From positions 62,001-126,000 of the forward strand of contig JAHDLC010000014.1 in assembly GCA_018436595.1 (NCBI GenBank): 64,000 bases of DNA, given 5' to 3'. This DNA is from Synergistaceae bacterium. GTDB taxonomy: Bacteria; Synergistota; Synergistia; Synergistales; Aminobacteriaceae. The notes beneath the pieces are model-generated. The model made no database searches. It was not told the DNA's origin and saw nothing but the letters and a program-made list of their open reading frames with translations. This document shows, in pieces, positions 6,735-59,558 of this stretch; within the stretch, counting starts at the first letter, position 1, and each line of letters opens with the position of its first letter. Made by a program: the position numbers and the translations under genes.

Positions 6735-6785
6735 CTTTTTCCGCCGGTGCTCCCGGTCCGGAACCTTTTTTCGGAGGTGTCCCCC

Positions 6786-12700: not shown

Positions 12701-15395
12701 CTCCGTCTCTTTCCCCGTGATGGAGCTGCCCCCCGAGCTGAAGGTTCCTCCCCTGAAAGGGGCCGTCAGGGCGGACCCCGAGCCCGGGACGGTGAACGGG
12801 AGAATCACCCTCTCCGCTTCCGCGGAAGGGGGCAAGCCCCCCTATACCTTCCGGTGGGGAGGTCCGGTTACCAGGTCGGGGGATATTCTCACCTTCATCC
12901 CCGACCGGCCGGGGACGTTCCGGTTCACCCTGCTGGTCCTCGATTCGGCGGGGCGGCAGGTCACGGTGAACCGGGATGTGGAAGTGAAGCCCTTCACCGT
13001 CACCATATCCGGCATCCCCCAACGGGCGATTCTCGGGGAAACGGTCTCCTGCCGGGTGGACTACCCTCTCTCCCCTCCGGGATCGAGGGTGAACCGGTCT
13101 CCGGTGCCGCGGATCCGCCTCTCCGGCAGCCCGGAAGTGCAGTGGAACCCCGCGGAGGGAACGGGGCCGGGATTCAGCGGCCGGGTGGCCCGGCCGGGCA
13201 TTGCTGACATCCGGGCCGAAGTGCGGGGAGCAGGAGGAGTGGTTCTCGGTGTCTCCGAGCCCGTGCAGGTGACGGTGGACACGCCTCCCCTCTCCCTGGC
13301 GCTTCCGGAATACGTGACCCCGGGCGACAGTTTCCGGGCCTCCGTAAAGCTTCCGCCGGGAGTGAACGCAGACGAAGTGTTCGATTTTGACTGGAAGGCG
13401 GCCTTTCCCGCCGCCCGGCAGTACGGCCGTGAAGGGGGAAGCGCCCTCGTCGGGCCGGTGAGCGGGCTCGATCCTGTCCCGGTGTCGGTTCTTGTCCGGG
13501 ACAAGGGAGGAAAAACGGCGGCGGAACTTTCGGGGGCCGTTTCCGTGCGGTCCCTGGATGTCACCGTCAGGGTCCGGGCCTTCTCCGAGAGAGGGCAGAT
13601 CGTGCTGCCTGACGGACGGGTGGACTATCCCCCCAGGGAGGAGTGGATCGAAGGGCAGACGGCCGAGTTCAAGGCTTTTGTCTCCCCCGCGAAAGCCGTG
13701 ACCTGGGAATGGTCGGCCACGGGGCCCGGAACAATCGGCCATGCGTCATGGGACACTGCCTCGGTGACCCTGAACGGAACAGGGTCCCTGGCCGTCACGG
13801 TCCTGGCGAAAGTAGGGGGGAAAGAAGCGGGCAGGGCGGAAGTGATCCTCCCCGTGACCGTGGCAAAGAGCAGAATCCAGGCGGCGAGGGAGTACCAGGC
13901 CGGGCGGAACGAGTGGAACGCCGCCCGCCGGGACCGGGCGGTCATCGCCATGGAACGGGCGGCATCCCTGGATCCGGGCAATCCCGCCATCGAGCGGGAA
14001 CTGGCGCGGATGAAGGGCGAGGCGGAAAAGTCCCGGGCCGAAGATGCCCGGAAGCGGGCCGTGGATGTCTGGAACCAGGCCGCGGAACTCCAGAAGAAGG
14101 AAAAGTATGAAGATGCCCTTGAAAAATACCGGGAGGGCCTGAAAATCAGCGATGAAAAGGCTGTCCGTGATCACGTGAAGAAGCTCGAGGACTTCATAGC
14201 CGACAGGAAGCGCAGACAGGAGCAGGCCGAAGCCGATGCCCGGGCCCGGGCGGAGGCCGTCTGGCGCAGGGCGGCGGAGCTGCAGAAGGGAAAACGGTAC
14301 GAAGATGCCCTGGAGAAATACAGGGAAGGCCTTGCCATCTTCCCCGACCCGGTGGTGGAGGAGCACGTCCGGAAGCTGGAGGACTATATCGCCAGGATGA
14401 AGAATGCGGCGGAAGCAAAGAAACCCGCAGAGGCTCCTTCTTCCGGCGGAGGGAAGGATCCGGGGGCGGAAACGCCGGCGAAGAAACCCGGAACTCCACC
14501 GGCCGACACGGAGCAGCATTGGAGAGGATGGAAGAGCTTCACCCTCGCCGGAATCCGGTACGAGATCCCCGCCGGAGGCTTCCAGAGCGTGAAAAGCTCC
14601 TCGGGGAAGGAAAACGGAAAATACCCCTTCGCAAACTACGATTATTACATGAACGGCAAGCGGGTGGCCGTCGTCCGCATCGGCACCCTGGCGCCGGGGC
14701 TCACCGACGGCAAAATCAAGGGGCTCTATACCGGAAAGACCGCCAACCGGATCTTCGACTCCCTCTCCGGCGAGGGAACGGTGACCCTGGGCGGCCGGAA
14801 GGCCTACTACCTCCAGGGGAACGCCCCCGGAGTGACCCGGAAGTTCTTCTTCATAGCCGACGGAGCCGAGGGCGGCATGGGAGCCTACCTTCACGTGGTG
14901 GCCGGCAGCGGGAGCGGCTGGAAAAAGTACGCCCCCATGTTCGGGGAGATCGCCGGAAGAATGTCGTTCACGGCGGGAAAAACTCCTCCGCAGAGCGGGG
15001 CGGACAAGGGGGCGGGAACGCTGCCCTCAGGCTGGAAATCCGTGACCATCGGGAACGTCACCTTCGGCATTCCCTCTACCTGGAACGGGAAGACAATGAA
15101 GGAACATGACGTGGAATCGCTTCACGTCTACTGGCAGGGAAGCTTCGACAACCCGGTCCACGGCGTCTCCGGAGGGGTGACGAAGAAGTATGGGGAGGCG
15201 AAAAAGGAGCTCCGAGGTGCCCGGACGGTCTCCCTCGGAGGGGTGAAGGTGCTCCGGGCGGACGAGGACGGAGCGGTGAACCTTCTCTTTCCGCCCCTTG
15301 GCGGCAACAGGGGCGTGGCCCTCGTCCTCTTCCGGGGAAAGGGCGGCAAACAGGCGACCCTGGAGGCCATACTGAAGACTGTCACGGTACAGTAA
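6786..15395 (+). CDS. Giant secreted multidomain protein (2869 aa), Ig-like and TPR-like regions
   Basis: I do not recognise this protein as a whole. The ATG at 6786 has GGAGG upstream and opens a signal peptide (residues 1-24, ending YAA). Residues about 25-960 are mainly helical and charged, with one strongly hydrophobic stretch near 642-665 that could insert in a membrane. From about 970 to 1345, and again from about 1690 to 2360, there are successive beta-rich segments with Ig/PKD-like wording (YQWSVNGE, FRWGGPVTRSG, PPYTFRW, tryptophan mid-strand). They are split by an acidic E/D/K/P linker (about 1350-1395) and a separate domain (about 1505-1680). Residues about 2365-2540 hold TPR-like helices, including two near-identical AAELQK...YEDALEKYREGL units. 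Two related C-terminal domains (about 2580-2735 and 2746-2869) each open with GWKS(F/V)T and a Y/F-x-IP motif. It is probably a cell-envelope or surface scaffold. It sits between secreted SH3, protease and Sel1 proteins. Confidence 0.8.
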   Translation: MKRSLFSVLILLVVLFLPCGGYAAPSVRENEYWLKVNPIGRPPAQPSEAYSLLESRLRNVLAGDLDGMEFFRSLGRDGMAMRDVMAFKEEFIRLRGEELRKTEALSPADALPGALEAWERTFGEAERSLMDVRRKGVERAFAEGVRRYRDAHPDFPYLVRMDAGASSRESYGELRFEGDIDISTLAAQAENAAALRDFISSSIRDSFSLDMTSLDALVTAHRQATLDVYITQPAADWAEMDSLKRGRLQEIVLENGEVGYRDVSDPVERVFIFANLKNNLRMRGGAPDDLARLMDEPPDRMTPDMEPAVSLEMLRHMTTDALQARLAYHEKILKLAKYVDRSAAIAQGPLGDTALAAWARQVTLVKQNRGLDGGQRLKRILEISEPLLGDPRDFAGLDRAILSLGERASALIRDNVSKGIDARLKLIDDARTPAEKDGERRKLLSELEETFKAYVEKGVDFPPKAHETMIALADALKVTVLNIPASELERMKRYLDLAAEKPGSLDLALGMAWRLFEGSYTTADGAIDAFNNWFDYLDNHTVARLRAMNPDVFLPGPGGKTRAVTIPIGRINDRLNASILGAAGNSLPFKAVNLGQELYAYVSGFREGKDMSESVSNVATQLFRSRVPGGDIVEAVVMENYTRAAIGVVYLLFPTLAVPEALYGMGTAAAEWYVGTWQQWQYDEMVDELYEGTAFEPTREGTWRVKSITYSLPGGGSVTVGRDEAFTLPELVPKISNILVPQVRTHPSIAMYHELLARKELSDGQSGIPVWPRRYLNLSLYGERLYEKYVSEVKRVTRQYFADVIAELEKRKAFDQGTNEKKLREIGEELGCGDSLLEKTGSGREPQEAVIADWEEWLKVHGALMEFRERWSAFFILVRKPSCSPESIRIVLEEDRKDLGEAKKALREAAVAVEEIVGRNDADEKTLQPAVRTRAGALIYPSGTPERRRMISEYREYLESLRSRQTPPGARISGPDTVGEGMEASFTVVLDRELTSARYGWKFASGGDGEVLEGDTTSRILWTPSSPGKKVLEVHVLADLPGADWVRAVHPVTVLSAAETPRPRLRLTCPVDSFRAGEIVPLTAETEEFGLGGEGFEWYIWFVDGRRIASTAERTISFDGTGYEGRTVEIRVEARTKNRFVSASALSLEVLPPGGAGGELRVFLEPDITEAAAGTPLRFSGTAFPRKGGGTLKYQWSVNGEFAGDGDALHFDTAPWEGKTAEIVFYAAQVLEGTVLFEGSASRKISVVREVPLSVALETHPSKVGDTETIRLVVKDPLDGVEYEWHEWDSVSRRWSSGAAVAGRRLVKSARGLAGQSLRFRVTGRDGKGRTAAAESGLIEITEPSWPGPEEEEPEADTEKPDTDPEKKDGGKPAVPGDAGEGPEKDGAAEDDGTLRLELPATVMEGEIVAVKALLPPGMAEQAADSFRWSSDPSRGRRSFVILGETVGGTDGFGGGGGERTARPETEIQFTPHQNTRGVRGSVGVTVYRKLRGNQKGAPMESLAEAYRSVEVLPMGCSVAASASWAGGPNEEGVLLTLDEDTSRGSVRGEFLLQIGTWRGRTLESVKKQVETNNQYGTLERVAVDGYEGYLAVQGPSYNIKRSPDGRFVTGGRVVLNGLVIRGEAALDFRSEIKFSLAEDNIPEDDPETARFARGLMSQLRSILASIRVVPDPKRTTGPADAAGEEKKDAVVTLRRVSPPAGPVTAGMPVELLASAEGAKKGDLFFRFEPSTEVSFSPPESEEGRTKAVFSEPGTVRIWAVALDGNGTLGESEQVEIEVVGPELTVTAMPPKPKVGEEVKAKAGAKPGLPEGAFVVWTLEGKASRSGAKAADSTEYSFLPREAGKYVLKAEARSQGGETLAEKTLAVEVTGYEVAVTVLGPAGPRPQEWVQGQGLRTVEKDTFLRDEHVRMKAEVKDADAPKDLRWKWIPGPETSLASSGIGQEATLYGTAAGTASALVEVRDTEDLLLGAASVSFPVMELPPELKVPPLKGAVRADPEPGTVNGRITLSASAEGGKPPYTFRWGGPVTRSGDILTFIPDRPGTFRFTLLVLDSAGRQVTVNRDVEVKPFTVTISGIPQRAILGETVSCRVDYPLSPPGSRVNRSPVPRIRLSGSPEVQWNPAEGTGPGFSGRVARPGIADIRAEVRGAGGVVLGVSEPVQVTVDTPPLSLALPEYVTPGDSFRASVKLPPGVNADEVFDFDWKAAFPAARQYGREGGSALVGPVSGLDPVPVSVLVRDKGGKTAAELSGAVSVRSLDVTVRVRAFSERGQIVLPDGRVDYPPREEWIEGQTAEFKAFVSPAKAVTWEWSATGPGTIGHASWDTASVTLNGTGSLAVTVLAKVGGKEAGRAEVILPVTVAKSRIQAAREYQAGRNEWNAARRDRAVIAMERAASLDPGNPAIERELARMKGEAEKSRAEDARKRAVDVWNQAAELQKKEKYEDALEKYREGLKISDEKAVRDHVKKLEDFIADRKRRQEQAEADARARAEAVWRRAAELQKGKRYEDALEKYREGLAIFPDPVVEEHVRKLEDYIARMKNAAEAKKPAEAPSSGGGKDPGAETPAKKPGTPPADTEQHWRGWKSFTLAGIRYEIPAGGFQSVKSSSGKENGKYPFANYDYYMNGKRVAVVRIGTLAPGLTDGKIKGLYTGKTANRIFDSLSGEGTVTLGGRKAYYLQGNAPGVTRKFFFIADGAEGGMGAYLHVVAGSGSGWKKYAPMFGEIAGRMSFTAGKTPPQSGADKGAGTLPSGWKSVTIGNVTFGIPSTWNGKTMKEHDVESLHVYWQGSFDNPVHGVSGGVTKKYGEAKKELRGARTVSLGGVKVLRADEDGAVNLLFPPLGGNRGVALVLFRGKGGKQATLEAILKTVTVQ

Positions 15396-19653: not shown

Positions 19654-21690
19654 ATGAACACCCTGAGAGGAAGGCTGCTTGGAATTTTTCTTGTATTGAG
19701 TCTTGGAGGGCTGGCGATCATCGGTTTCCTGGCGGTGAACAGCTCGAGCCGGGCGCTGGTATCGTCGGCGGAGAAGGAAGGGCTCGCCCTGGGCAAGGGG
19801 CTGGCGGTTGAAACGGACATGTTCTTCCGGGAGCGGCTGAATTTCCTCAATCTGCAGTCTGAACGGAACGTCGTCAGGACCATGAAGTGGGAGACCCAGA
19901 AGCAGGGGCTTGAGGAAGCGGCGAACCTCTACGGCGACCTGGTCGACATCTGGGTGGTCTCTCCCGACGGTTCGGAAAACCATCTCACCGGAACGCTGGC
20001 CGGGTTCGAAGGAAAAGAGGGACTGCGGAAAGTGCTTTCCGACGGCAAAACCTATGTTTCTCCCGTGACGGTTCTGAAGAGCGCCGGAAAGAATGTCGTG
20101 GTTTTCGGCGTTCCCGTCGAATCGGACGGACAGCGGGTCGGTGTCCTTTCGGCCGCCTTTGACGCGGCGGGACTCAGCAAATTCATCGATCCCGTCCGCT
20201 GGGGAACCACGGGATACGCCTACGCCACCGACAGAAACGGCGTCATCCTTGCCCATCAGAACAAGGGGCACATCGGCGTGCTGGACACATCGAAAGCCGC
20301 CGGGGCCATCACACCTGAACTGGCGGAGGCCATGAACAAGGGGCTGGCCGGGCAGCAGGGACTCGCCGGATACTCCTACGAGGGAAGCGACAAGTACGTG
20401 GCCTACTACCCCATTCCCACCATCGGCGGTGTCCTGGGCATGACCTCAACGGTGGAGGAGTTCCTCGCCCCTGTCCGGGCGATCCGGAATACGGTGATCA
20501 TTGCGGCGGCTGTAGTGGCACTGCTTGTCATTGCCGTGTCGCTGTGGATGGCGGGCAGCATTGCTTCCCCTGTCCGCCGGGTGGCCGAAAAGATGGAACT
20601 CGTGGCGGCAGGTGACCTGACCTCCACGGTGGAGCTCCGGAGCAGCCTTGCCGAAGTCAAGCTGCTGGTGGACGGCATCAACTCCATGATCACCCTGGTG
20701 GCCGGGTCGATGCGGGACATCTCAAAGAGCTCCCGGGCCGTACTCGCCAGGGCTGAGGACATGAGCGCCGCCGCCGAGGAATCAACTGCGTCCATCGAGG
20801 AAGTGATGGCCATGGCGGAGAAGGCCAGCTCGAATACTGAATCCGCCGCCGCTTCGGTGGAAGAGACCAATGCCGGGGTGGAGGAAGTGGCCGCCGGAGC
20901 CCAGGCTGGGGCGAAGGCGGCGGTGGAGGCCGGAGAGGAGGCCGCCCTTATCTCCGATGCCGCCCGGAAGGGCGGGAAGGCCGTGGAGGACATGGCCGGC
21001 CTGATCACCGAGACGGCGAAGGCCGGCGAAGATGTGAGCAGTGCGGTGACCAATCTCGCCGGGACCGTGAAGAATATTTCCGGTTTCGTGAGCATCATTA
21101 CGTCCATCGCCGACCAGACGAACCTTCTGGCCCTGAACGCCGCCATCGAGGCCGCCCGGGCCGGTGAAGCCGGACGGGGGTTCGCCGTGGTCGCTGAAGA
21201 AGTGCGCAAGCTCGCCGAGGAATCGAACAGGGCCGCAGGCGAGGTCGGCAAGCTCATCGGCGAGATCTCGAGCCGTACGGACAGTGCCCTCCGGGATTCC
21301 GCCAACTCGTCGAAGATCCTGAAGGATCTCGTAGTCCGGGCGGACGAGACGAGCATCCTCATCGCCGACGTGGTGAAGCGGGTGAACAACGTGGCGGAAA
21401 ACATCCAGACCATCGCCGCCACCATGGAGGAACAGTCGGCAAGCGCCGAGGAAATGACCGCCGGTATGGACAGCGTGGCGAAAAGCAATACAGAAATTGC
21501 GGACCAGGTTTCGGGCATCGCGGGGGCCATGCAGGAGCAGTCGAAGGTCGTGGAGTCCATTGCCTCCGCCTCGGAGGAGCTGGTCAACCTGAGCGCCGCC
21601 ATGGAACAGGCCGTGTCCAGGTTCCGGACAGGGGAGGAGAACCGGGGGCTTTTCCCTGAAACCTCGGTATCGGTCAAAGGGAAGAAATGA
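19654..21690 (+). CDS. Methyl-accepting chemotaxis protein with Cache sensor domain
   Basis: A 678-residue chemoreceptor in the inner membrane. The first membrane helix is at about residues 7-27. The periplasmic region (about 30-275) looks like a Cache domain: [35 protein letters not shown]. The second helix is at about 283-303, followed by HAMP and the coiled signalling domain. The hairpin tip for CheA/CheW is the invariant [38 protein letters not shown] (about residues 487-525, key residues [14 protein letters not shown]). Alanine- and glutamate-rich methylation helices are present on both arms. The ligand is unknown; Cache receptors often sense amino acids or organic acids. GGGAGAGGATAG precedes the ATG. 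A second receptor follows at 23159. Confidence 0.95.
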
Positions 21691-23158: not shown

Positions 23159-25303
23159 TTGCTGAAGAATGTGAAGATCGGATCAAAGCTCGCAGCGGGA
23201 TTTGCCGTTGTGCTCGTCATTTTTTCCGCCGCCGGATGGTTTGCCTGGCGCAACATGAACACAGTGATATCCGAAGTAGGGACTCTCGAACAGCGATATG
23301 TTCCGGGCATCGAGCTTTCCAACGAAATCGAGAACATAGCCCAGACCCTGATGCTCCACATCCGCACATACGTTCTCGCGGACAGCTTCCAGGACCTCCA
23401 GGCGGCCCGGGAGGATTTCGAGGCCATGGCGGAGGTGCTGAAAAAGGCGGGAGAACATGCGTCGGTCCATCCGGGCCTTGAGCTTCTGGCCGAAGGCGTG
23501 AAAAAGTCAGAGGACCAGATGGCATCCTACAAGGCCCTCCTGGAGAAATCCCAGGGACTCATCGCCGCCATGGCCGGTCAGAAGCGGAAGGCTGCCGAGG
23601 CGGGGGAGTCCATGAGAAAAATCGCCTACGATCTGCTCTATGACGAAAAGGACGCCCTCGAAAAAGACCTGAACGACCCCGCATCCCGGGGCAACGTCCC
23701 CACCAGGCTTGAGAATATCGCCCTCCTCGACGTCCTGGTGGAATCGGTCCACAAGGCGGAACACGTGACCCTCACGGCCATTGCCAACAGGAAAACGGAA
23801 TTGATCGTCCAGGCCAAAAAAGACCTGGAAGAGGTCCGCAGCCTGCTCGGCGAGGTCAGGATGACGGCCTTCGAGGAAAAACTGATCCGGAATCTCGAAA
23901 AGGCCGTGAAGGACGTGGACGACTACACCCTGGCCCTTGACGATTTTCTGAAGGCATGGGCAGACCTGGACAGCGTCAATGCCGAGAGGGCCGCTGCGGG
24001 TGAGGCGGTTCTTGCCGCTGCCGGGGAAGTCATGAAGTTCAGCGTCGGCAGGACGCTGGAGATATCGGGCGTGGTGACCGGCCAGGCCCGGAGTGTTTCC
24101 AACATGCTTCTCCTTTCGATTTTCGCCGCTGTGCTCGTCGGAATGGCGGTGGCGGTGGTCATCACCCGCATGATCACACGGCCCCTCCGGAAGGCGGTGG
24201 ACCTTGCGGAACGGGCCGGAAACGGAGATCTCACCATTTCCAGGGAGGATTTCCAGTATGAATCCTCCGACGAGATCGGGGCCCTGGCCGACGCTCTCGC
24301 GGGAATGGCGGAACTCCAGGCCGGTGCCGTCAGGGAGATCGCCGCCGCCGCCGAGGAAGTCGCCAGGGGAGCGGAAACTCTCGCGGCCCTCTCCCAGGAG
24401 ACCAACGCCTCCGTGGAGGAAGTGAGGGGATCCCTGGAACAGGTGGCTTCCATTTCCGAAAGCAATTCCGCGGCTCTCGAGGAGTCCAACGCAGGAGTGG
24501 AGGAAGTCGCCGCAGGCGCCCAGGCGGCGGCGAAGGCCTCGTCCGACGGTGTGGCGGCGGCGAACCAGACCGCATCCATGGCAAAGGAAGCGGTTGCGAA
24601 GGTGGAGGAAGTCATCCGGGAAGTGCGCGCCGTCGGCGGGAAGTCCGGGACGAACATGGAGAAGATCCGGGCCCTGGCTGAGTCCGTGGAGGAGATCTCC
24701 GGTTTCGTCACGGTAATTACCTCCATCGCCGACCAGACCAACCTTCTGGCCCTGAACGCAGCCATCGAGGCGGCCCGGGCCGGGGAAGCGGGCCGCGGCT
24801 TCGCCGTGGTGGCCGACGAGGTGCGGAAGCTCGCCGAGGATTCCAGCAGGGCGGCCAGGGAAGTGGAGTCCCTCATCACCACCCTCCACGGAAACGCCCG
24901 GGAATCCATGGAGGTGACCGAAGAGACCGGCAGGGTGATGCAGTCCACGGTGGCCGAAGCGGCAGACGCCCAGGGCAGGCTGTCCGGAGTGCTCGGGGAA
25001 ATCGCCAGGATAGAAAAATCCATCGCCCACATCGCGGAGCTCTCCAGGTCCCAGGCTTCGGCCAGCGAGGAAATGGCCGGGGCCATAGACCAGGTCTCCC
25101 ACGCCACCATCGACGTGGTCCAGAGGGTGGACGCCATCCGGTCCGCCTCAGGGGAGACGGCGGCGGCGTCGGAGGGGGTCGCCCGGGAGGCGTCGGCCAT
25201 GGCCGACAGGGCCGAGCACATGCGGAATCTCCTGTCCCGGTTCATCCTGTCGAAAGACACGGAGAAGGAAGAGGAAGAGGCGGGGCTCGTCCCGGCCGAG
25301 TAA
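23159..25303 (+). CDS. Methyl-accepting chemotaxis protein with four-helix sensor region
   Basis: A 714-residue chemoreceptor. The start is TTG at 23159, supported by TTGAGGTGA six bases upstream; the nearby ATG is in another frame. Membrane helix one is at about residues 11-29. The periplasmic part (about 30-315) is almost entirely helical with heptad patterning, as in four-helix or double four-helix (HBM) sensor domains, with no Cache motifs. Helix two is at about 318-340, followed by HAMP ([19 protein letters not shown]) and the signalling coiled coil with tip [24 protein letters not shown]. The C-terminus is acidic ([13 protein letters not shown]) and lacks a CheR/CheB tethering pentapeptide. 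The ligand is unknown. Confidence 0.94.
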
Positions 25304-34107: not shown

Positions 34108-35232
34108 GTGCGACCCGTTCATCTCGTTTATGTCAGCGCCGGAAACGGCCATCGGATGGCCGCGAGAGCCATCCGGGAGTCCCTTGACCACCGGGGGGTG
34201 CCCAACGTGGTCATGGACCTTCTCGACTTCTCCAGCGACCTCTTCAAGTGGTCCTACAGCGACGTCTACGCCTTTGTAAGCGAACACTCCCATCTTGCCT
34301 GCCGCATCATGTACGACCTTACGGACAAAAACCGGGAGGAGAGCGCGGCCCTCAGGCTTTTCGAAAAGATTTCCACCGAGAACGTGAAGAAATTCATGCG
34401 CTATATCTCCGAGAATGAACCCCGCAAATGCATCTGCACCCATTATTTTCCCCTGAACGTCCTCTCCCGCATGAAGGCGGCGGGGATGTACAGCGGTGAA
34501 TTGTATACGGTGATCACCGATTTCGGTCTCCGGCGGATGTGGGTGAAGGACTACGTGGACCGGTACTTCATCTCCGGCGACAGGGTTCTCAAGGGACTTC
34601 TCGCCCTCGGAGTGCCAAGGGAGAAGATATCCGTGACGGGTATTCCGGTCTCCCGGAAGTTTGCCTCCCTGAAACGGGAGGGACGGAACTTCTCGAAAAA
34701 GCGCCTTTCCTTCCTCTTCGTCGCCAGCAGCATCCCGAATATTCTCGCCCTCGATATCCTGGCCGCCCTTTCGAGGACGGGCCACCCCATTGACGTGACA
34801 GTGGTCACGGGACGGAACAAGGACCTCATGGCGGACCTGGAGAACGTCACTGTCGGAGGGAGCATGACACTGAAGGTCCTGGGGTTTGTGGACAACCTGG
34901 AGGAGCTCATGGCCGGGGCTTCGGTGCTCATCACCAAGCCCGGAGGCCTGACGGTGAGCGAGGCCCTCTGCTCCGGCGTGCCCATGATCCTCGTCAATCC
35001 CATCCCGAAGCAGGAGACCAACAATTCGGCCTATCTCCAGGACAAGGGAGCGGGCCTTCTCGCCAGAAGCGCGGCGGATGTGGAGCGGATCGTCGATGGC
35101 CTTTTCTCCGACCGGTCCGTTCTTTCGTCGATGGAAAGGGCAGCCTCGTCCATCGCCTTCCCCGGCGCGGCCGACGCGGTGGCGTCACTGATCCTTGACG
35201 GGGACGGAGGAGATGGTTCCTATGCAGGGTGA
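34108..35232 (+). CDS. Glycosyltransferase, MGDG synthase/diacylglycerol glucosyltransferase type
   Basis: A 374-residue GT-B fold enzyme of family GT28. The N-terminal YVSAGNGHRMAARAIRESL is the glycine-rich acceptor motif of MGDG synthases and UgtP-type enzymes. CTHYFPLNVLS and TDFGLRRMWV follow, and the C-terminal donor site contains TKPGGLTVSEALCSGVPMILVNPIPKQETNN. Such enzymes transfer glucose or galactose from a nucleotide sugar to diacylglycerol at the inner face of the membrane; MurG is a distant relative. GTG at 34108 follows AGGGGGG. Its end overlaps the next gene by 11 bases, coupling it to a c-di-GMP enzyme. The sugar and lipid are undetermined. Confidence 0.88.
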   Translation: MRPVHLVYVSAGNGHRMAARAIRESLDHRGVPNVVMDLLDFSSDLFKWSYSDVYAFVSEHSHLACRIMYDLTDKNREESAALRLFEKISTENVKKFMRYISENEPRKCICTHYFPLNVLSRMKAAGMYSGELYTVITDFGLRRMWVKDYVDRYFISGDRVLKGLLALGVPREKISVTGIPVSRKFASLKREGRNFSKKRLSFLFVASSIPNILALDILAALSRTGHPIDVTVVTGRNKDLMADLENVTVGGSMTLKVLGFVDNLEELMAGASVLITKPGGLTVSEALCSGVPMILVNPIPKQETNNSAYLQDKGAGLLARSAADVERIVDGLFSDRSVLSSMERAASSIAFPGAADAVASLILDGDGGDGSYAG

Positions 35233-36976
35233 TGATTTCGCCGGAAGGTTCGGCGAGCTCTTCGGCTGCGACGAAGGGACGGACAGAGTGCGGCGCGCCC
35301 TGCAGATCATTTCCACCGTGTTTTCCAGCACGGTGGAAGGAATCGTGGTTACCGATCCCAGGGGCATCATACGCATGGTGAACCCGGCTTTTTCCTCCAT
35401 TACGGGGTACAGCGCCGACGAGGCGGCGGGACGTAATCCCCGGATACTCAAGTCGGACCGCCATCCGCCGGAGTTCTACGAGAGCTTCTGGAGAACGCTG
35501 ATCAACGAGGGAAAGTGGGAAGGGGAGATCTGGAACCGAAGAAAGAGCGGAGAAGTCTACCCCGAGTGGCTCTGCTGTTCCGCCGTCCATGATGAAAAGG
35601 GGAACGTCACCGACTACATCGCCGTCTTCAACGACCTGTCGGAGGTCCATTTCAAGGATGCCCAGATCGAGCTCCGGTCCAATGTCGACCAGCTTACCGG
35701 CCTTTCGAGCCGGACAGTGTTCTATTCCCGGCTGGAAGGGGAGCTTGAGCGCCGGGACCGGGACGGGCGGCGCCTCGCCCTCCTGGTGCTGGACATCAAC
35801 CGCTTCAAGAACATCAACGACTCCCTCGGCCATTTCGCCGGAGACGGCGTGCTGCAGCAGGTGGGCGCCAGGCTGTCCCGCCATCTCGGCGGCAGGGACA
35901 GGGCGTCCCGGATCGGCGGCGACGACTTTCACATCCTCATTCCCGATGCCCCTTCGGTGAAGGAGATCGCCTCCGGGGCGGAGAAAATTCTCTCCCTGCT
36001 GAACGATCCCGTGGACGCGGCGGGAAACAGGCTCTTTCTCAGCGCTTCCCTCGGCATCGCCGTTTTCCCCGATGACGGCCGGACGGCGGAAACGCTGCTC
36101 AAGAAGGCCGACATGGCCATGCACAAGGCCAAGGAGCTGGGAATCAGCAATTACCGGTTTTTCACCGGAGAGCTGGGAGAACAGGCGTCCTCGAAGCTGC
36201 TGCTGGAGAATTCCCTGCGGGCCGGGCTTGGACGGGGCGAGTTCCGCCTCGTGTACCAGCCGAAATACGACCTCCGGGAGGACCGGGTGTCCGGCATGGA
36301 GGCCCTGCTCCGGTGGCATGCTCCTGACCGGGTGATTCCGCCCTGGGAATTCATCCCCCTGGCGGAGGAGACGGGGCTTATCCTTCCCCTGGGCGAATGG
36401 GTCTTCAGGGAGGTTTGCCGCCAGGTTTCCCAGTGGGCGTCGGAGGGGCATCCTCCTCCCGAGGTGGCGGTGAATCTGTTTGCCCGGCAGCTCCACCAGG
36501 AGGGGCTGCCCGCCTTCCTGAAGGGGGTCATGGATGAATATGCCGTGGATCCCTCACGGATCGGCATCGAGATCACCGAGTCGGGGATCATGGAGGACCT
36601 GGTTGATTCGGTGTCCGTCCTCTCCGGGATCAAGGACCTGGGGATGACGGTCTACGTGGACGACTTCGGGACCGGGTATTCCTCCCTGAACTATCTCAAG
36701 CGCCTTCCCATCGACGTGCTGAAGATCGATAAGTCCTTCGTCGACGGCGTGCTCACCGACAGGAATGACGCGGCCATCACCAGGGCCGTCATCGTTTTGG
36801 GTCGTTCCCTGGGCATGTCGGTGCTGGCGGAGGGGGTGGAAACGCGGGATCAGCTCGAATTCCTGAGGCAGAACGGGTGCGACGGAATCCAGGGGTATCT
36901 GCTGAGCCCTCCCCTGCCTCCGGAGGATACCCTGCGGTTCAGAAAAACGGGGCATACCCCTTTGTTTCCGGCATAG
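35222..36976 (+). CDS. PAS-GGDEF-EAL c-di-GMP enzyme
   Basis: A 584-residue soluble protein. A PAS sensor lies at about residues 27-130 (EGIVVTDPRGIIRMVNPAFSSITGY). The GGDEF domain (about 150-310) carries GGDDF instead of GG(D/E)EF near residue 235, so cyclase activity may be weak or lost. The EAL domain (about 325-575) keeps the phosphodiesterase motifs EALLRW, ITES, DDFGTGYSSLNYL, LKIDKSFV and AEGVET, so c-di-GMP breakdown is the likely output. No membrane helix is present. I chose ATG at 35222, nine bases after GGAGGAG; an in-frame TTG at 35195 and ATG at 35213 have worse spacing. PAS could hold haem or flavin, which would suit the oxygen-sensing neighbours, but this is not visible. Confidence 0.92.
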   Translation: MQGDDFAGRFGELFGCDEGTDRVRRALQIISTVFSSTVEGIVVTDPRGIIRMVNPAFSSITGYSADEAAGRNPRILKSDRHPPEFYESFWRTLINEGKWEGEIWNRRKSGEVYPEWLCCSAVHDEKGNVTDYIAVFNDLSEVHFKDAQIELRSNVDQLTGLSSRTVFYSRLEGELERRDRDGRRLALLVLDINRFKNINDSLGHFAGDGVLQQVGARLSRHLGGRDRASRIGGDDFHILIPDAPSVKEIASGAEKILSLLNDPVDAAGNRLFLSASLGIAVFPDDGRTAETLLKKADMAMHKAKELGISNYRFFTGELGEQASSKLLLENSLRAGLGRGEFRLVYQPKYDLREDRVSGMEALLRWHAPDRVIPPWEFIPLAEETGLILPLGEWVFREVCRQVSQWASEGHPPPEVAVNLFARQLHQEGLPAFLKGVMDEYAVDPSRIGIEITESGIMEDLVDSVSVLSGIKDLGMTVYVDDFGTGYSSLNYLKRLPIDVLKIDKSFVDGVLTDRNDAAITRAVIVLGRSLGMSVLAEGVETRDQLEFLRQNGCDGIQGYLLSPPLPPEDTLRFRKTGHTPLFPA

Positions 36977-37082
36977 GTCAGGATATAATCACAGCATAAC
37001 GTTCCGGGCGACACCTTCTCCCCGGGGCTATGACAGCCGACAATGAAATCCAATTGTTTATTTCGGGAAGGAGTTGGGTTAT

Positions 37083-37856
37083 ATGCAGCATATACGTTCC
37101 CTTTCCCTGTTCGACCAGGGCGATCACCGGTTCATCATGCTCGGCTGGGAGGAGCAGGAAGAAGAGGTGGCCGTCCAGACGAACCAGTACGTCATTTCTT
37201 CCGGAGGCGAGGTGGTGCTTCTCGATCCGGGCGGAGCCCACGTCTTCCCCCGTGTCCTGGCCAACGTCGCGGAACTGTTCGAACTGAAAAACATCAGGCA
37301 CATCTTCTATTCCCACCAGGATCCCGACGTGTCCTCGGGAATCACCCTGTGGCTCTCCATGGCGGAAAAGGCCTCGGTCCACATCTCCGGGCTGTGGGTG
37401 CGCTTCCTGCCCCATTTCGGCATCTATGACGTGAAGCGCATCTCGCCGATCCCCGATAAGGGGGAGACCCTTTCTCTCGCCAACGGGAAAAAACTGGTTA
37501 TCCTGCCGTCCCACTTTCTTCACTCCACAGGGTGTTTCTCCCTCTACGATCCGGCGTCGAAAATCCTCTTCAGCGGCGACATCGGCGCGGCCATCTTTCC
37601 CAGGGGGGGCCGGTACCCCGTGGCGGAGGACCTGGACTCCCACCTGAAGTACATGGAGGGATTCCACAGGAGGTACATGGCGTCCAACGCCGCGTGCCGC
37701 CGATGGGTGAAAATGGTGTCCGCACTGGACGTGGAGCACATCGCCCCCCAGCACGGCGCCTTCATCAAGGGGCGGCAGAACGTGAAGAAGTTCCTTTCCT
37801 GGTTCGAGAACCTCGCCTGCGGGGTGGACGTTCTCGATGAAATCTACGGCCGCTGA
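37083..37856 (+). CDS. ODP-type oxygen-binding di-iron protein, metallo-beta-lactamase fold
   Basis: A 257-residue cytosolic protein of the FprA-like branch of the metallo-beta-lactamase fold, without the flavodoxin part. Metal ligands are visible as YSHQDPD (about H78, D80, D82), FLHSTGCFSLYD (His), FSGDIGAA (Asp) and APQHGAF (His), i.e. a di-iron rather than di-zinc pattern. Its closest known type is the ODP of Treponema denticola, which binds oxygen or reports iron redox state to a chemoreceptor. The next gene is a soluble chemoreceptor, the same pairing. I start at ATG 37083, nine bases after GGAAGGAG; a TTG at 37074 is the alternative. A simple flavodiiron-type oxygen reductase role is less likely because no FMN domain is attached. 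Confidence 0.85.
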   Translation: MQHIRSLSLFDQGDHRFIMLGWEEQEEEVAVQTNQYVISSGGEVVLLDPGGAHVFPRVLANVAELFELKNIRHIFYSHQDPDVSSGITLWLSMAEKASVHISGLWVRFLPHFGIYDVKRISPIPDKGETLSLANGKKLVILPSHFLHSTGCFSLYDPASKILFSGDIGAAIFPRGGRYPVAEDLDSHLKYMEGFHRRYMASNAACRRWVKMVSALDVEHIAPQHGAFIKGRQNVKKFLSWFENLACGVDVLDEIYGR

Positions 37857-37881
37857 CGGCCTGGGCCGGGAGGACGACGGA

Positions 37882-38724
37882 ATGGAACGCAGCTATTCGG
37901 AAGTGATCCACCAGCTCGGCAGTGCCTACTTTGCCAACACGCTGATGAACTCCTTCATGGCCCAGCTCGACGAGGTGCTGGTGAACCGGGTGAAGGCGGT
38001 GGAGGGGGAGATAGCCGAGACGTCGGAGCGGTTCGTGCAGCTCAGCCGCATCCTGGGAGATCTCCAGGCCGAGTTCGACCGGAGCGGCCGGGAGACCAGG
38101 GAAACGGTTGAGGAGATCAACCGGATGAACGGCGACCTGTCGGCGGAGCTTCAGCGCTCCGGCACCGATCTTGACGGCATGAGCGAGAACGTGTCCAGGA
38201 CGGTGGATGCCACCACCGGCACCCTGGAATCTTTCCTTGAGATCGAGAAGATGTCGAAGGAAATCCAGAGGATAGCAAAGCAGACCAACCTCCTGGCCCT
38301 GAACGCCTCCATCGAGGCTGCCAGGGCGGGAGAGCACGGAAGGGGATTCGCCATCGTGGCGAAGAACGTCCAGGAGCTCGCCGCCGAGACCAAGGCGGCT
38401 TCCGAGTCCATCGGCGCCAAGGTGGGGGAGATCTCCGGTTCGGTGGAGCGGGCCATGGAGGATATCCGGGGGATCAGCGACATGTTCGACATGATCCGCC
38501 GCTCTCTGACGACGTTCACCCGGTTCCTCGACACCAACAAGGCCTTCATGGAAAGAATGGAGAACACCATGGCGGACGCCGGGGAAAAGGTCAACAGGAG
38601 CTCGGGAGAGATGGAGAGCTCCGTGGCGGTGATGGAGAACGCGTCCAGGAAGTTCGGCTCCATGGCGGCCACCATCTCCGCCATCGTCCTGGCCCAGAAG
38701 AATCTCAAGAAGATTCGGCTCTGA
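37882..38724 (+). CDS. Soluble chemoreceptor signalling protein (ODP partner)
   Basis: A 280-residue protein made of a chemoreceptor signalling coiled coil with no membrane segment, HAMP or ligand domain. The hairpin tip is conserved ([35 protein letters not shown], about residues 148-182; key residues [16 protein letters not shown]). The N-terminal 40 residues are helical and may contact the ODP protein. GGGAGG precedes ATG 37882; the frame upstream overlaps the ODP gene. With ODP encoded just upstream it looks like a two-piece cytoplasmic oxygen or redox chemoreceptor signalling through CheW/CheA. The HD-GYP gene begins two bases after its stop. Confidence 0.88.
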   Translation: MERSYSEVIHQLGSAYFANTLMNSFMAQLDEVLVNRVKAVEGEIAETSERFVQLSRILGDLQAEFDRSGRETRETVEEINRMNGDLSAELQRSGTDLDGMSENVSRTVDATTGTLESFLEIEKMSKEIQRIAKQTNLLALNASIEAARAGEHGRGFAIVAKNVQELAAETKAASESIGAKVGEISGSVERAMEDIRGISDMFDMIRRSLTTFTRFLDTNKAFMERMENTMADAGEKVNRSSGEMESSVAVMENASRKFGSMAATISAIVLAQKNLKKIRL

Positions 38725-38726
38725 AC

Positions 38727-39944
38727 ATGGGAGAGTCATCCGCGGCGCAGGCGGCACCATGGGAAACTTCCGGTGAGAACGTGAGATACGTTCCCCTGGA
38801 CGACCTTTGCCATTACAGGGGCAGGGTGGCCGAGGACATCCTCTCCGAGGACGGGGCGCTGCTCCTGCCCCGGGGAAGCGACATCCCGGCGATCCTCGAG
38901 TCCATGCCCGGCATAACGAAGACGCTCCGACGCTGGAACAGGGAATTCATCCCCGTCCAGGTATCTTCGGACATCACCGAGAAGGAATTCGAAGCTGTTC
39001 TCCGGGCCATCGAGCCGAAAACACGCATGCTTGACCCAAACCTGGCGATGAGAGCCATCCACCAGGTCGAGGAAGTATACTCCAGAATTTCGGAGGACGG
39101 GAATTCACGGGAGGGAATCGAAACCCTTGCCAGGGAGGCCGACAGGCTTGCCCGGGAAGTTGTTCAAACGCCCCAGATCCTGCTCTGTCTCGGAAAGGTG
39201 AAGGATTCCGACGAATACACCTTTATCCACTCCCTCAACGTGGCCCTCCTGTCGGGGTACCTGGCCTCGATCCTCCACCCCGGCGACGAGGAGCTCGTGA
39301 AGACCATGACCTTCGGCGGCCTGCTCCACGACCTCGGAAAGGCGAAGGTTCCCCCGGAGATACTGAACAAGCCCGGCAGGCTGACCTCCGAGGAGTTTGA
39401 AGTGATGAAGACCCACGCCATCCAGGGAATGGTCTCCGCCGTGGCCTCGGGAGTGGACGACCGGCGGATACTCTCGGTGGTGAGGAACCACCACGAGCGC
39501 TGGGGAGAGGACGGATACCCCGACGGCCTGAAGGAGAACCGGATATCCCTGTTCGCCAGGATCGCCGCCGTGGCAGACGTGTTCGACGCCCTGACGGCGA
39601 AACGGGTGTACAAGGACCCCATGAGAAGCAGGGAAGCGGTCTCCATGATTCTCGAGTCCTCGGGGAGCAGTTTTGACGGGGCCATAGTCCGGGCCCTGCT
39701 CGTCTCGGTGGGCCTCTACCCTCCCGGGACGGTGGTGGAACTGTCGGACTACAGCGTCGGTGTGGTCACCGGCGTCCGGAACAAAGACCTGCTCCGCCCG
39801 CAGGTCTTTCTCTCGGTGGATCCCAGGGGACGCAGGCCGGATACGCCCACCATCATCGACCTCTCCCTCGTCGGAAACATCTTCATCCGGCGGTCCCTGG
39901 ACGACATGGGAAAGGGCGTCGTCTACAGGCGGGACGAAACCTGA
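38727..39944 (+). CDS. HD-GYP domain c-di-GMP phosphodiesterase
   Basis: A 405-residue soluble protein. The N-terminal 130 residues resemble the DUF3391-like partner region common in HD-GYP proteins (GRVAEDILSEDGALLLPRG). The HD-GYP domain (about residues 150-310) has LLHDLGKAKVPPEILNKPGRLT near residue 202, the HHE motif and DGYPDGL near residue 265, a complete metal and substrate set that hydrolyses c-di-GMP. The C-terminal SVGVVTGVRN segment is a small beta-barrel typical of this subgroup. It follows the soluble chemoreceptor by two bases and is likely translated with it, tying oxygen sensing to c-di-GMP turnover. Confidence 0.92.
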   Translation: MGESSAAQAAPWETSGENVRYVPLDDLCHYRGRVAEDILSEDGALLLPRGSDIPAILESMPGITKTLRRWNREFIPVQVSSDITEKEFEAVLRAIEPKTRMLDPNLAMRAIHQVEEVYSRISEDGNSREGIETLAREADRLAREVVQTPQILLCLGKVKDSDEYTFIHSLNVALLSGYLASILHPGDEELVKTMTFGGLLHDLGKAKVPPEILNKPGRLTSEEFEVMKTHAIQGMVSAVASGVDDRRILSVVRNHHERWGEDGYPDGLKENRISLFARIAAVADVFDALTAKRVYKDPMRSREAVSMILESSGSSFDGAIVRALLVSVGLYPPGTVVELSDYSVGVVTGVRNKDLLRPQVFLSVDPRGRRPDTPTIIDLSLVGNIFIRRSLDDMGKGVVYRRDET

Positions 39945-54899: not shown

Positions 54900-57776
54900 T
54901 TGAGACGAACACGCAGCCGATTGTCCCTTCCGGCGCGGAAGGGGCGTTTCGATCCGTTCAGGCGCGCTTTTATTTTTTTCCTCCTTCTGGCTGCCGGAGC
55001 AGTAGCCGTTCTGTCGGTCCTTGACGGTCGTGCGGTTGCCCGGCAGGAAGAAATAGTGAACGACCAGCAGTTCCTCTCCGCGACCCTCGCGCGCCTTGCC
55101 GCCGAGGACCGGTTTTCCTCTGTCGACGCCTCTGCCGGGTTCCTTCTGAACCACGTCTTTTCCCGTACCCTCGACGGAACCATGACCGTGGCGGAAGCCC
55201 AGAACTATCTTCAGCCCATGGTATACAACATGCCGGAGGTACTCGGCTTTTATTTCCTTCCCAACGTACCGGGAAAGGATTTTCCGCCGGTCACGGCCTT
55301 CCGTTCCACGCCAGCGGGAAATGACGGCCGGGTCTTCGCCGCCTCGACGGCGGACCGCCTCGGTCCCGGCCTCTTTTCCCAGGATGATGCCGTGGCCCTT
55401 TCCGGATCCGTGATGGTGACACCCCAGCAGCGGATGGCCCTTTTCTGCCACGGATTTTCCGGAGGAGGCTCCCTTCGGGGAGTGCTTCTCACGGTGGTGG
55501 ACCTCTCTGCGGTGCTGTCCCGGTACGTCGTTCCCACGGCCAGGGGAAGGAGCGGATTTTCCATGGTGCTTACCGAGGACGGCACCCCGGTGTGGTTCAA
55601 CGATCCTTCGCAGCGCGGCCCCGAAGGGAGCTTCGGCAGGGAATCCCCTGAACTGGAGAGTGTCCGGAGCCTCGTTTCCGGGGCCGTTTCCGGAAAAAGC
55701 AGCCTGGAAATACCGGGCGCTAAGGGCGGCAGCAGGCTGCTCGTGGCATGGAACACCCTCCGGATGGGTGGAAAGCGTCTCGCCGTGGTGCTGGCTTCTC
55801 CCGCGGAAGAAGCGGAAGCGGCTCTCAGCGGCCTGAGAACCCAGAGAAACCTGCTTTTGGGTCCCCTCCTCCTTCTCGTCGTTCTGGGGAGCGCCTTTTT
55901 CACGGGAAAACAGCGGCAGGAGGAGATCAAAAGAAGGGAAGCCGGTTTCAGGGCCGTTTTCGACAATGCCTCCTCCGGAATCGCCATCCTCAGCGTCGAA
56001 GGGAGATTTCTCTCATGCAACGCCACCTGGGAGACCATGACGGGCCTTTCGCAGGAACGGCTGCGGCAGAAAACCATTTTTGACCTTGCCGCTCCCGGCC
56101 AGGGACGGGATGAACTCGGCCGGATCCTTGGAGGGAACGGGGGAAGCCGCAGGTCCGAGGCCAGGTTTTCCCGGGCCGACGGAGTCTCGTTCTGGGGAGA
56201 TGTCACCCTCACTCCCATGGATGCCGATCCGTCCCTGCCGCCCGGTGCGCTCCTGGCGCTCATCACCGACATTTCCGGTATGAAGCGGGCCGAAGACCTC
56301 CTGAAGCAGAATGCCGCAACCCTGGAGGCCCAGAAGGCGGAACTTGAAAAACTCGCCTCAGACCAGGGGATGCTCCTCGACCTCTTCGCCCTCTTCGCCG
56401 AAGCGGAGAGTCCCAGGGAGATCCACAGAGCCCTCTTCGCCTCCCTTCCCGTCATCATCACCTTCAGGAACCTCTTCCTGTGCGTTCGGGAACCCGGAAA
56501 GGACGGCCGCTACACCACCCTGGACGCCATGAACGAGGTGGAACGGTCGGGGCAGGCGGGCTTCGGCTCCGAGGGCAAAGGCATCGTGGGATACGTCCTG
56601 AGGACGGGCAAGGCCTACATCGCCGGCGACCTGGCCATGGACCCCTACTACGTTTCCCACTCTGAGGAAGCCCGGTCCCTGGTCGCCGTTCCCATCTCCT
56701 ACAAGGGAAAGGATTGGGGGGTGCTCTGCCTGGACAGCGCCGTGAGGTATGCCTTCGGGGTCCGGGAGAGGGACCTCCTCGGTCTCGTAGGCTTCTATGT
56801 GGCCCTCCATCTCGAGGAGGTGGAGGCCAGGGCCGAACTTGGAAAAAAGGCGAAGCAGCTCGGGTTCCTTCACAGGGTGATACAGCACTTTGCCGCGGAA
56901 CGGACGAACGAGGATCTGTCCAGGAGAATTGTGGACATCCTGGGGGCGGAACTCGGCTTCCCCCTGGTGGGAATCCTTGCTCCCGGAGGGGAGGACGGAG
57001 AAAACATGACCCTGCTGGCCGGCCATCCCGGCGATACGGGAGGAGATGACATGATGTCCCTTTTCGCCTCCCGGGCGAGGGACGCTCTGCGGACAGGACT
57101 CCCCGTCGCAGGGGGAGAAAACGAACGGCCCGGGACCCTGGCGGTGCCCCTCTCGTTCAACGGAACGGTGTTCGCCGTCCTTGCCGCCTGGAACGAGAGA
57201 GGCTTTACCCCCTCCGAAAAGGAGCTTCTGGAAATCACGGCGGAACACGGCGCCACCTTCTGGGTGCTGAACAACCTGTTGGCCGAACGGCGCCACGAGG
57301 CCCTGATCGACCCCCTCACCCAGGTGTGGAACCGCAGGTACATCATGCGGCGGCTGGAAGAGGAAAATTCGAGGATCTCCAGGAACGGAAGCAGGGGAGC
57401 GGTGGTCCTGGTTGACCTCGGGGACTTCAAGAGCATCAACGACCGGTTCGGCCACGTGGCGGGCGACGAAGTGCTCAGGGAAACAGCGTCCCTCATGAGC
57501 AAAAACCTGAGAACCTGCGATATGATAGGAAGATACGGCGGAGACGAATTCCTTCTTTATCTCCCGGACGTAACCGTCGACCAGGCCGCCGCGGCCATGC
57601 TCCGCATGGAAGACCGGGTTGCCGGCCTGAAAATCCCCGGAGTGAACGCCGCAGTGGTGCTGGATTACGGCATAGCCTCCTGCCCGGGTGACGGAAACGA
57701 CCTCGTGGAGGCCATAGGAGTCGCCGACGCAAGGATGTACGAGAACAAGGCGAGACGAAAGGCGGAAACTGCATGA
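54900..57776 (+). CDS. Multi-sensor diguanylate cyclase (periplasmic-PAS-GAF-GAF-GGDEF)
   Basis: A 958-residue inner-membrane protein. The start is TTG at 54900, with AGGAG ten bases upstream. The first membrane helix is at about residues 24-43 and the second at about 313-333. The 270-residue periplasmic part between them is likely a double Cache-type sensor. Cytosolic domains are PAS (about 345-467; GIAILSVEGRFLSCNATWETMTG), two GAF domains (about 490-637 and 657-797) and GGDEF (about 800-955) with DPLTQVWNRR, DLGDFKSINDRFGHVAGDEVL and an intact GGDEF near residue 880. It therefore synthesises c-di-GMP in response to several inputs. An RxxD inhibitory-site motif was not obvious. The next gene overlaps its stop by four bases. 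Confidence 0.93.
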   Translation: MRRTRSRLSLPARKGRFDPFRRAFIFFLLLAAGAVAVLSVLDGRAVARQEEIVNDQQFLSATLARLAAEDRFSSVDASAGFLLNHVFSRTLDGTMTVAEAQNYLQPMVYNMPEVLGFYFLPNVPGKDFPPVTAFRSTPAGNDGRVFAASTADRLGPGLFSQDDAVALSGSVMVTPQQRMALFCHGFSGGGSLRGVLLTVVDLSAVLSRYVVPTARGRSGFSMVLTEDGTPVWFNDPSQRGPEGSFGRESPELESVRSLVSGAVSGKSSLEIPGAKGGSRLLVAWNTLRMGGKRLAVVLASPAEEAEAALSGLRTQRNLLLGPLLLLVVLGSAFFTGKQRQEEIKRREAGFRAVFDNASSGIAILSVEGRFLSCNATWETMTGLSQERLRQKTIFDLAAPGQGRDELGRILGGNGGSRRSEARFSRADGVSFWGDVTLTPMDADPSLPPGALLALITDISGMKRAEDLLKQNAATLEAQKAELEKLASDQGMLLDLFALFAEAESPREIHRALFASLPVIITFRNLFLCVREPGKDGRYTTLDAMNEVERSGQAGFGSEGKGIVGYVLRTGKAYIAGDLAMDPYYVSHSEEARSLVAVPISYKGKDWGVLCLDSAVRYAFGVRERDLLGLVGFYVALHLEEVEARAELGKKAKQLGFLHRVIQHFAAERTNEDLSRRIVDILGAELGFPLVGILAPGGEDGENMTLLAGHPGDTGGDDMMSLFASRARDALRTGLPVAGGENERPGTLAVPLSFNGTVFAVLAAWNERGFTPSEKELLEITAEHGATFWVLNNLLAERRHEALIDPLTQVWNRRYIMRRLEEENSRISRNGSRGAVVLVDLGDFKSINDRFGHVAGDEVLRETASLMSKNLRTCDMIGRYGGDEFLLYLPDVTVDQAAAAMLRMEDRVAGLKIPGVNAAVVLDYGIASCPGDGNDLVEAIGVADARMYENKARRKAETA

Positions 57777-58544: not shown

Positions 58545-59558
58545 GTGCCGCCGCTGACGCACCAGAAAATACTCGTCGCGGAGGATTCCCTCTCCCAGAG
58601 GGCAATAATCTCCAGGCACCTGAGAAAATGGAATTACGATGTGCTGGAGGCTTCCGACGGCCTCCAGGCCCTGTCGCTCTTCAGGCGGGAAAGCCCGCCC
58701 ATCGTGATCACCGACCTGGACATGCCGGGAATCGACGGTTTCCGGCTGATAGAAGCCATACGGAAGAGCGAAATCTTCAGAACCTTCATCATCGTCCTGA
58801 GCGCCTCGGGCGACAAGTCGAGCGTCGTCTCCTCCCTCGCCATGGGGGCGGACGACTACCTGGTGAAGCCCTACCACCCGGAAGAGCTTCGGGTGCGCCT
58901 TTCCGGAGCGGAGCGGGTGCTTCTGCTCCAGAACCAGGAACTGCTGATCTTCGCCATGGCCCAGATGGTGGATACAAGAAGCAGGGAGACGGGAGCCCAT
59001 CTCGACAGGGTGCAGTTTTTCTGCAGGAAGCTCGCCGAGGGGCTGGCCGCCATGGGCGAGGAGATCGTCACGCCCTCCTGGACCAACCAGCTCTTTTCCC
59101 TGTCTCCCCTTCACGACGTGGGAAAGATCGGCATCCCGGACGCCGTTCTGAACAAGCCCGGACGGCTGACTCCCGAGGAATTCGAGGTCATGAAGGAGCA
59201 TGTGACCATCGGGGCAGACATCATCGCCCGTATCCACGAGAAGACGGGGTACGCCCCCTTCGCCTTCGCCGAGGACATCATCCGGTACCACCACGAAAAA
59301 TTCGACGGCTCGGGCTACCCGGAGGGTCTGTCCGGGGACGCCATACCCCTGGCGGCCCGTATCGTCGCCCTGGCGGACGTCTACGACGCCATCAGCAGCA
59401 AGAGGGTATACAAGCCCGGTTTTTCGAGAGAAGCATGCTGGGACATCATCAACGAAGGCAGGGGAACCCATTTCGACCCCCGCCTGACGGACATCTTCAA
59501 AGAAGAGGAATCCTTCTTCTGGGGCATAGTGGAGGAATACCGTGACCTCGACATGTAA
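58545..59558 (+). CDS. Response regulator with HD-GYP output
   Basis: A 337-residue soluble protein. The receiver domain (about residues 7-125) has the acidic pair in VAEDS, the phosphoacceptor Asp in VITDLDMPGIDG (about D57), Ser in LSAS and Lys in YLVKPY. The HD-GYP domain (about 140-330) has LHDVGKIGIPD, NKPGRLTPEE, YHHEKFDGSGYPEGL and ALADVYDAISSKR, a complete c-di-GMP phosphodiesterase set. The start is GTG at 58545 behind an AAAGGGGGG stretch. An Hpt gene overlaps its 3' end by 17 bases, so phosphorelay control is likely. No histidine kinase is adjacent. Confidence 0.93.
   Translation: MPPLTHQKILVAEDSLSQRAIISRHLRKWNYDVLEASDGLQALSLFRRESPPIVITDLDMPGIDGFRLIEAIRKSEIFRTFIIVLSASGDKSSVVSSLAMGADDYLVKPYHPEELRVRLSGAERVLLLQNQELLIFAMAQMVDTRSRETGAHLDRVQFFCRKLAEGLAAMGEEIVTPSWTNQLFSLSPLHDVGKIGIPDAVLNKPGRLTPEEFEVMKEHVTIGADIIARIHEKTGYAPFAFAEDIIRYHHEKFDGSGYPEGLSGDAIPLAARIVALADVYDAISSKRVYKPGFSREACWDIINEGRGTHFDPRLTDIFKEEESFFWGIVEEYRDLDM

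Follow-up and report, generated by a model that had tools for sequence, protein, structure and literature searches.

The closest described counterpart of the locus analysed here is the system of Muok et al. 2019 (pmid 31270241), as related in later articles (PMC7666581, PMC7319448, PMC6978683), in which an oxygen-binding di-iron protein (ODP) is combined with a chemoreceptor that carries neither transmembrane nor sensing modules. In addition, operons joining ODPs to other signalling genes, and fusions of ODPs to signalling domains, are already reported in one of these articles (PMC7319448), so an association of ODP with c-di-GMP enzymes may not be new as such. A related logic, in which c-di-GMP enzymes are under the control of a non-heme di-iron sensor, is described in a 2022 review for the hemerythrin sensors Bhr-DGC of Vibrio cholerae and Bhr-HD-GYP of Ferrovum, which have an unrelated fold and are fused single chains (PMC8846402). 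For c-di-GMP networks, that review tabulates O2 and redox sensors of the heme PAS, globin, and hemerythrin types; ODP is not among them, nor is the term used in the review (PMC8846402). Flavodiiron proteins have the metallo-β-lactamase di-iron core in common with ODP, whereas ODP has Asp for Glu in the H-x-[E/D]-x-D motif and no flavodoxin domain.

The locus lies in a stretch of 64,000 nucleotides (hereafter the window; G000:C38:62001-126000) of the genome of an anaerobic bacterium of the Synergistaceae, the family that also includes Fretibacterium fastidiosum. On the + strand, a gene for a PAS-GGDEF-EAL protein (PGE) is followed by genes for ODP, a soluble chemoreceptor (MCP), and an HD-GYP protein, and then by a DEAD helicase gene on the opposite strand (Table 1). 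As in the system of Muok et al. 2019, the ODP belongs to the family represented by the structures 6qrq and 6qnm, has the same ligands, and lies beside a receptor without transmembrane and sensing modules; in contrast to what is related of that system, the window has the receptor directly after ODP and an HD-GYP gene 2 nt further on. Unlike in the hemerythrin sensors, the putative sensor and the enzyme are encoded by separate genes. ODP-receptor pairs are already known for chemotaxis, and it is the HD-GYP neighbour that makes the window locus a variant. The reading we favour, and consider reasonably probable, is that ODP, MCP, and HD-GYP form a transcription unit whose core is a split oxygen/iron receptor and in which the HD-GYP protein is a co-expressed motility partner.

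Table 1. Features of the ODP locus in the window (positions counted from the first nucleotide of the window).
Feature	Position	Strand	Description	Basis
PGE	35213..36976	+	PAS-GGDEF-EAL protein; neighbour of the ODP transcription unit	domain profiles
TATAAT	36984..36989	+	possible -10 element of a promoter for ODP	kept in G000, G001, G002, G004
odp	37083..37856	+	257-aa ODP-type di-iron protein	PF19583, 6qrq/6qnm alignments, ligand columns
MCP	37882..38724	+	soluble chemoreceptor, 280 aa	MCPsignal, hydropathy, 3g67/3g6b alignment, N-terminal conservation
HD-GYP	38727..39944	+	predicted HD-GYP phosphodiesterase, 405 aa	HD_5/HD, active-site columns, AlphaFold model and Foldseek
Stem-loop	39956..39973	+	terminator-like stem-loop followed by a T run	lies 11 nt behind the HD-GYP stop

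ODP and its soluble receptor

In a Pfam profile search, ODP matches PF19583 (‘ODP’) with 254 bits over residues 31-225 (curated cut-off 27.2 bits) and PF00753, the metallo-β-lactamase superfamily, with 77.8 bits. These are its only Pfam matches; it is a stand-alone protein in which this search found neither a flavodoxin domain nor a fused redox partner. Its closest solved relatives by phmmer are 6qrq (380 bits) and 6qnm (280 bits). Both carry the title ‘oxygen-binding di-iron protein’, and in both alignments the stretches HQDPD, FLH/FMH, SGD, and PQHG are shared with the window protein. The predicted ligands (H78, D80, D82, H147, D166, and H224) are identical in both structures and occupy columns that are invariant or nearly so across an alignment of 102 rows. 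The HxHxDH zinc motif is absent, its place being taken by the ligand pattern H-x-D-x-D, and a flavodiiron-like protein encoded by the same genome has Glu at the position equivalent to Asp80. By this comparison, the window ODP is predicted to bind Fe and O2.

The receptor reads best from the ATG listed in Table 1, which lies 25 nt after the ODP stop and directly behind a purine-rich stretch. It matches MCPsignal in Pfam with 88.6 bits, the Pfam scan found no sensor domain in it, and it has no hydrophobic stretch, its maximum hydropathy over 19 residues being 0.81, where a membrane MCP from elsewhere in the window reaches 2.9. Its best solved relative, 3g67/3g6b, aligns with 127 bits and gap-free across 210 residues; the next matches, 4jpb and 3ur1, are both short receptor fragments. 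The 3g67/3g6b receptor and the 6qrq ODP, the closest solved relatives of the two window proteins, are presumably both from Thermotoga maritima. The window differs from them in its HD-GYP neighbour and in a segment of ~43 residues that precedes the aligned stretch at the receptor N terminus. This segment, outside the signalling hairpin, contains a motif, SFM.QLDE.LV.RV, that is conserved in an alignment of ODP-linked receptors, mostly from Synergistota, and is a candidate contact site for ODP. The receptor is predicted to be all-helical, and its single-protein model is one long helix, uninformative on ODP contact.

ODP is present in 40 of 188 Synergistota genomes, and at every one of the 38 intact Synergistota loci read it is immediately followed by a co-directional MCP gene; an MCP also adjoins ODP at most of the Nitrospirota loci read. 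CheA occurs in 38 of the 40 genomes with ODP and in 92 of the 148 without it (Fisher p ~3e-5, for genomes that are related and so not independent). Fretibacterium fastidiosum (G009, 89% complete) has the ODP-MCP pair at locus L008 and no match to the CheA dimerisation domain. The combination of ODP with a sensorless receptor has been described before, and the window pair is its ordinary Synergistota version. The preliminary description of the window had read the two genes as a split cytoplasmic receptor made of an ODP-type di-iron protein and a membrane-free chemoreceptor 25 nt behind it, and this reading holds at every point that can be tested by sequence.

The HD-GYP neighbour and the gene order

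The HD-GYP protein starts 2 nt after the receptor stop, matches HD_5 in Pfam with 105.6 bits, and has all core residues in the alignment of active-site columns (H168, H201-D202, K205, H230, H255-H256, G263-Y264-P265, and D284), and it is predicted to be an active c-di-GMP phosphodiesterase. In its AlphaFold model, the HD-GYP core is preceded by an N-terminal α/β domain and followed by a small β domain at the C terminus. Foldseek matches of the model include 4mcw, 4r8z, and 9rbz; the confident ones are confined to HD-GYP proteins and other known types of HD-domain protein, and no extra sensor fold was found among them. In PGE, the EAL motifs are intact and the GGDEF site is changed to GGDDF, as also in its relatives, so PGE is probably mainly a phosphodiesterase. 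Both genes were correctly placed in the preliminary description, two bases after the receptor and upstream of ODP, respectively, with a correction to the GGDEF motif, which reads GGDDF. A second c-di-GMP neighbourhood lies near the window end, where a GAF/PAS-GGDEF gene (54900-57776) is found near a response-regulator HD-GYP gene (58545-59558).

ODP begins 106 nt behind the PGE stop. Directly after that stop, the candidate -10 box is kept in all four genus members compared, while the remaining spacer sequence of G004 has diverged, and a consensus scan found no full sigma-70 site. The MCP and HD-GYP genes are co-directional and 1-2 nt apart within the genus. Given the 106-nt gap, the kept TATAAT, and the terminator-like stem behind HD-GYP, the three genes ODP-MCP-HD-GYP are probably a transcription unit of their own, with PGE outside it. 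PGE was also considered as a required part of the ODP module and rejected, as its presence in relatives does not follow that of ODP-MCP and a separate -10 box for ODP is probable in the genus.

The preliminary description had named missing conservation of the gene order in relatives as a result that would speak against it; the order is kept in nearby genera and was not found beyond them. The genes ODP, MCP, and HD-GYP adjoin one another in g1 (the genus of the window), three g9 members, and the g5 genome G059. In g7, whose ODP lies on one contig and MCP-HD-GYP on another, the same arrangement is probable; it was not found in the rest of Synergistota. Being kept in these relatives, the order is not due to chance. 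An HD-GYP relative (E <= 1e-30) is nevertheless present in 18 of the 20 genera of the family that were sampled, most of them without ODP, and the orthologues in ODP-less genomes are intact in their active-site columns, neither lost nor decayed. In G012 and G063 (g9), ODP and MCP are both missing and HD-GYP comes directly after PGE; G021 lacks PGE as well as ODP and MCP, and its HD-GYP gene stands behind a glycosyltransferase gene. In the HD-GYP tree, g1 has G021 as its sister, and the ODP-linked g9 members have G012 and G063 together as theirs; the ODP-linked copies are not one clade and at least three changes, gain or loss, are forced. Conversely, ODP-MCP without an adjoining HD-GYP gene is found in G009, G014, G016, and G058 of the same family and is the commoner state in the phylum. 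Between the window and g9, identity is 85-89% for ODP and 82-83% for MCP, compared with 60-63% for HD-GYP, 68% for PGE, and 62-85% for the flanking genes, and HD-GYP ranks last or close to last in conservation within the cluster. Hence, from the joint absence of ODP and MCP where HD-GYP is kept, and from these identities, ODP and receptor appear as one unit that comes and goes together, and HD-GYP as a loosely attached neighbour that does not follow it.

These observations bear directly on the further proposal of the preliminary description, that the same sensor feeds c-di-GMP turnover. According to it, ODP would, directly or via the soluble MCP, also control the HD-GYP protein, and one oxygen signal would set both CheA activity and the c-di-GMP level. 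The 1-2 nt spacing and the tight order of the three genes in g1, in two further genera (g9 and g5), and probably in a third (g7) agree with this proposal. The HD-GYP orthologue, however, is widespread and intact without ODP, is kept where ODP-MCP is missing, and diverges fastest or nearly fastest in the cluster, while the pair commonly lacks an HD-GYP neighbour, and no ODP/HD-GYP fusion occurs among the ODP frames examined. Owing to this independence of HD-GYP, its direct control by ODP is possible but argued against at the window locus, and the proposal as a whole is in our judgement unlikely, though it retains some weight.

ODP beside c-di-GMP enzymes in other lineages

More weight for such a coupling comes from other loci. 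In g24, another Synergistota genus, a GGDEF-HD-GYP gene lies directly before ODP-MCP (CHASE4-PAS-GGDEF-HD-GYP in L010 and L016, the two copies scanned with Pfam), and in Thermodesulfovibrio (L018) a PAS-GAF-PAS-GGDEF-EAL gene lies directly after the pair. Elsewhere, the receptor is missing from between sensor and enzyme. Four Oceanospirillum genomes (L020, L022, L023, and L026; e.g. L020:5872-8817) have the order ODP-ODP-HD-GYP with no MCP between, and in the three HD-GYP copies aligned HHE..GYP is kept and the HDxGK motif is lost. In phyla sampled around L018 and L029, a tandem-HD, HD-GYP-like protein is encoded directly after ODP without an MCP (L221:158-2229, where the two reading frames overlap, L188:1-2229, and L179:1492-3726), and at L214 and L220 a GGDEF(-EAL) gene follows ODP directly, again with no MCP between. 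Outside Synergistota, the association recurs at 8 of 91 loci with a same-strand neighbour, a frequency that is high by comparison with no more than a rough expectation of ~1%. No fusion of ODP to HD-GYP or another c-di-GMP enzyme was found among the ODP reading frames scanned. In five Pseudomonadales loci (L136, L137, L143, L147, and L155), weakly MCP-like proteins of ~210-245 aa are encoded before ODP, in reversed order, and are strongly diverged or shortened receptors.

This recurrent and differently arranged linkage, with independent neighbourhoods at L010, L016, L018, L221, L179, L188, L214, and L220, is the best general support for an ODP signal with two outputs, and such support is stronger at those loci than in the window. 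It is joined by the precedent of the hemerythrins, another di-iron sensor family, described as controlling both a DGC and an HD-GYP enzyme (PMC8846402). Direct control of c-di-GMP by ODP is therefore credible for some bacteria. A broader generalisation, which we put forward as a tentative and rather doubtful one, is that ODP is a portable oxygen/iron sensor subunit wired to c-di-GMP enzymes in several lineages, either via a soluble receptor, as at the window locus, or as the immediate partner of HD-GYP or GGDEF(-EAL) proteins; swimming direction and c-di-GMP state would then both be set by a single di-iron protein. The question of ODP control over c-di-GMP is testable at loci with ODP directly before an HD-GYP or GGDEF(-EAL) gene and no receptor between, among which the ODP/tandem-HD loci L221, L188, and L179 offer the cleanest natural test; sister genomes with and without ODP-MCP at the same place are a second testable setting. 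For the window locus itself, the survey is mostly sobering, as the pair is ordinary and old and HD-GYP is a separable neighbour.

Possible outputs at the flagellum

A profile search found one CheA in the window's genome. Its operon also encodes an SRP54-type GTPase (FlhF-like), a YcgR-type PilZ protein, CheB, CheD, and a sigma-70-type factor, and the PilZ brake gene (G000:C2; L093:3179-3856) lies directly before the genes for CheB and the only CheA. Since the single CheA and the YcgR-like brake are encoded in one flagellar operon, a receptor output to CheA and a c-di-GMP output to the brake are both possible and could meet at the flagellum. A candidate second CheA at G000:C39 was rejected, being by eye a CheV-like CheW-receiver protein of which only the CheW part was matched by a profile. 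Additional CheW-type proteins are encoded in the genome, as are at least 13 MCPs; two HAMP-domain MCPs of the window, of dCache and 4HB type (19654-21690 and 23159-25303), flank an aminotransferase gene.

Under the favoured reading of a split receptor with a co-expressed HD-GYP partner, ODP would bind Fe and O2 in the cytoplasm, and would alter the state of the membrane-free chemoreceptor encoded beside it, which would act through the genome's single CheA on flagellar switching. The HD-GYP protein, made from the same message, would most likely lower c-di-GMP when the taxis module is expressed and thereby relieve the YcgR-like flagellar brake. Its most likely standing is that of a co-expressed motility partner, not of a demonstrated direct target of ODP. 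For this scheme, we infer contact between ODP and MCP, the sign of the signal, and co-transcription of the three genes. Two observations count against it: ODP is repeatedly found beside c-di-GMP enzymes in varied layouts, more than a chance neighbour suggests, and G009 has the ODP-MCP pair without a CheA match.

One may argue that motility and c-di-GMP genes merely gather in a syntenic region, LarA-GT28-PGE-[ODP-MCP]-HD-GYP|DEAD-NaPi, with neither shared regulation nor shared signalling, and the independent presence or absence of PGE, ODP-MCP, and HD-GYP in relatives fits such a view. However, the gap of only 1-2 nt between MCP and HD-GYP within the genus, a terminator-like site found only after HD-GYP, and a position of HD-GYP that is kept across deep branches of its tree make this quite improbable. 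Least probable is that ODP is not a sensor but an enzyme with unrelated neighbours, either a hydrolase using zinc or a di-iron protein that handles O2 or NO, such as a flavodiiron enzyme: its metallo-β-lactamase superfamily membership is compatible with this and sequence does not reveal metal content, but it was rejected on ligands (H-x-D-x-D without HxHxDH, identical to those of two solved oxygen-binding ODPs), on length (no fused flavodoxin domain or redox partner), and on neighbours (the invariable receptor pairing), and a flavodiiron-like protein, with Glu where ODP has Asp80, is encoded separately in the genome. Elsewhere in the window, an open reading frame of 2882 residues (6747-15395) has weak PKD-like matches and possibly encodes a giant surface protein.
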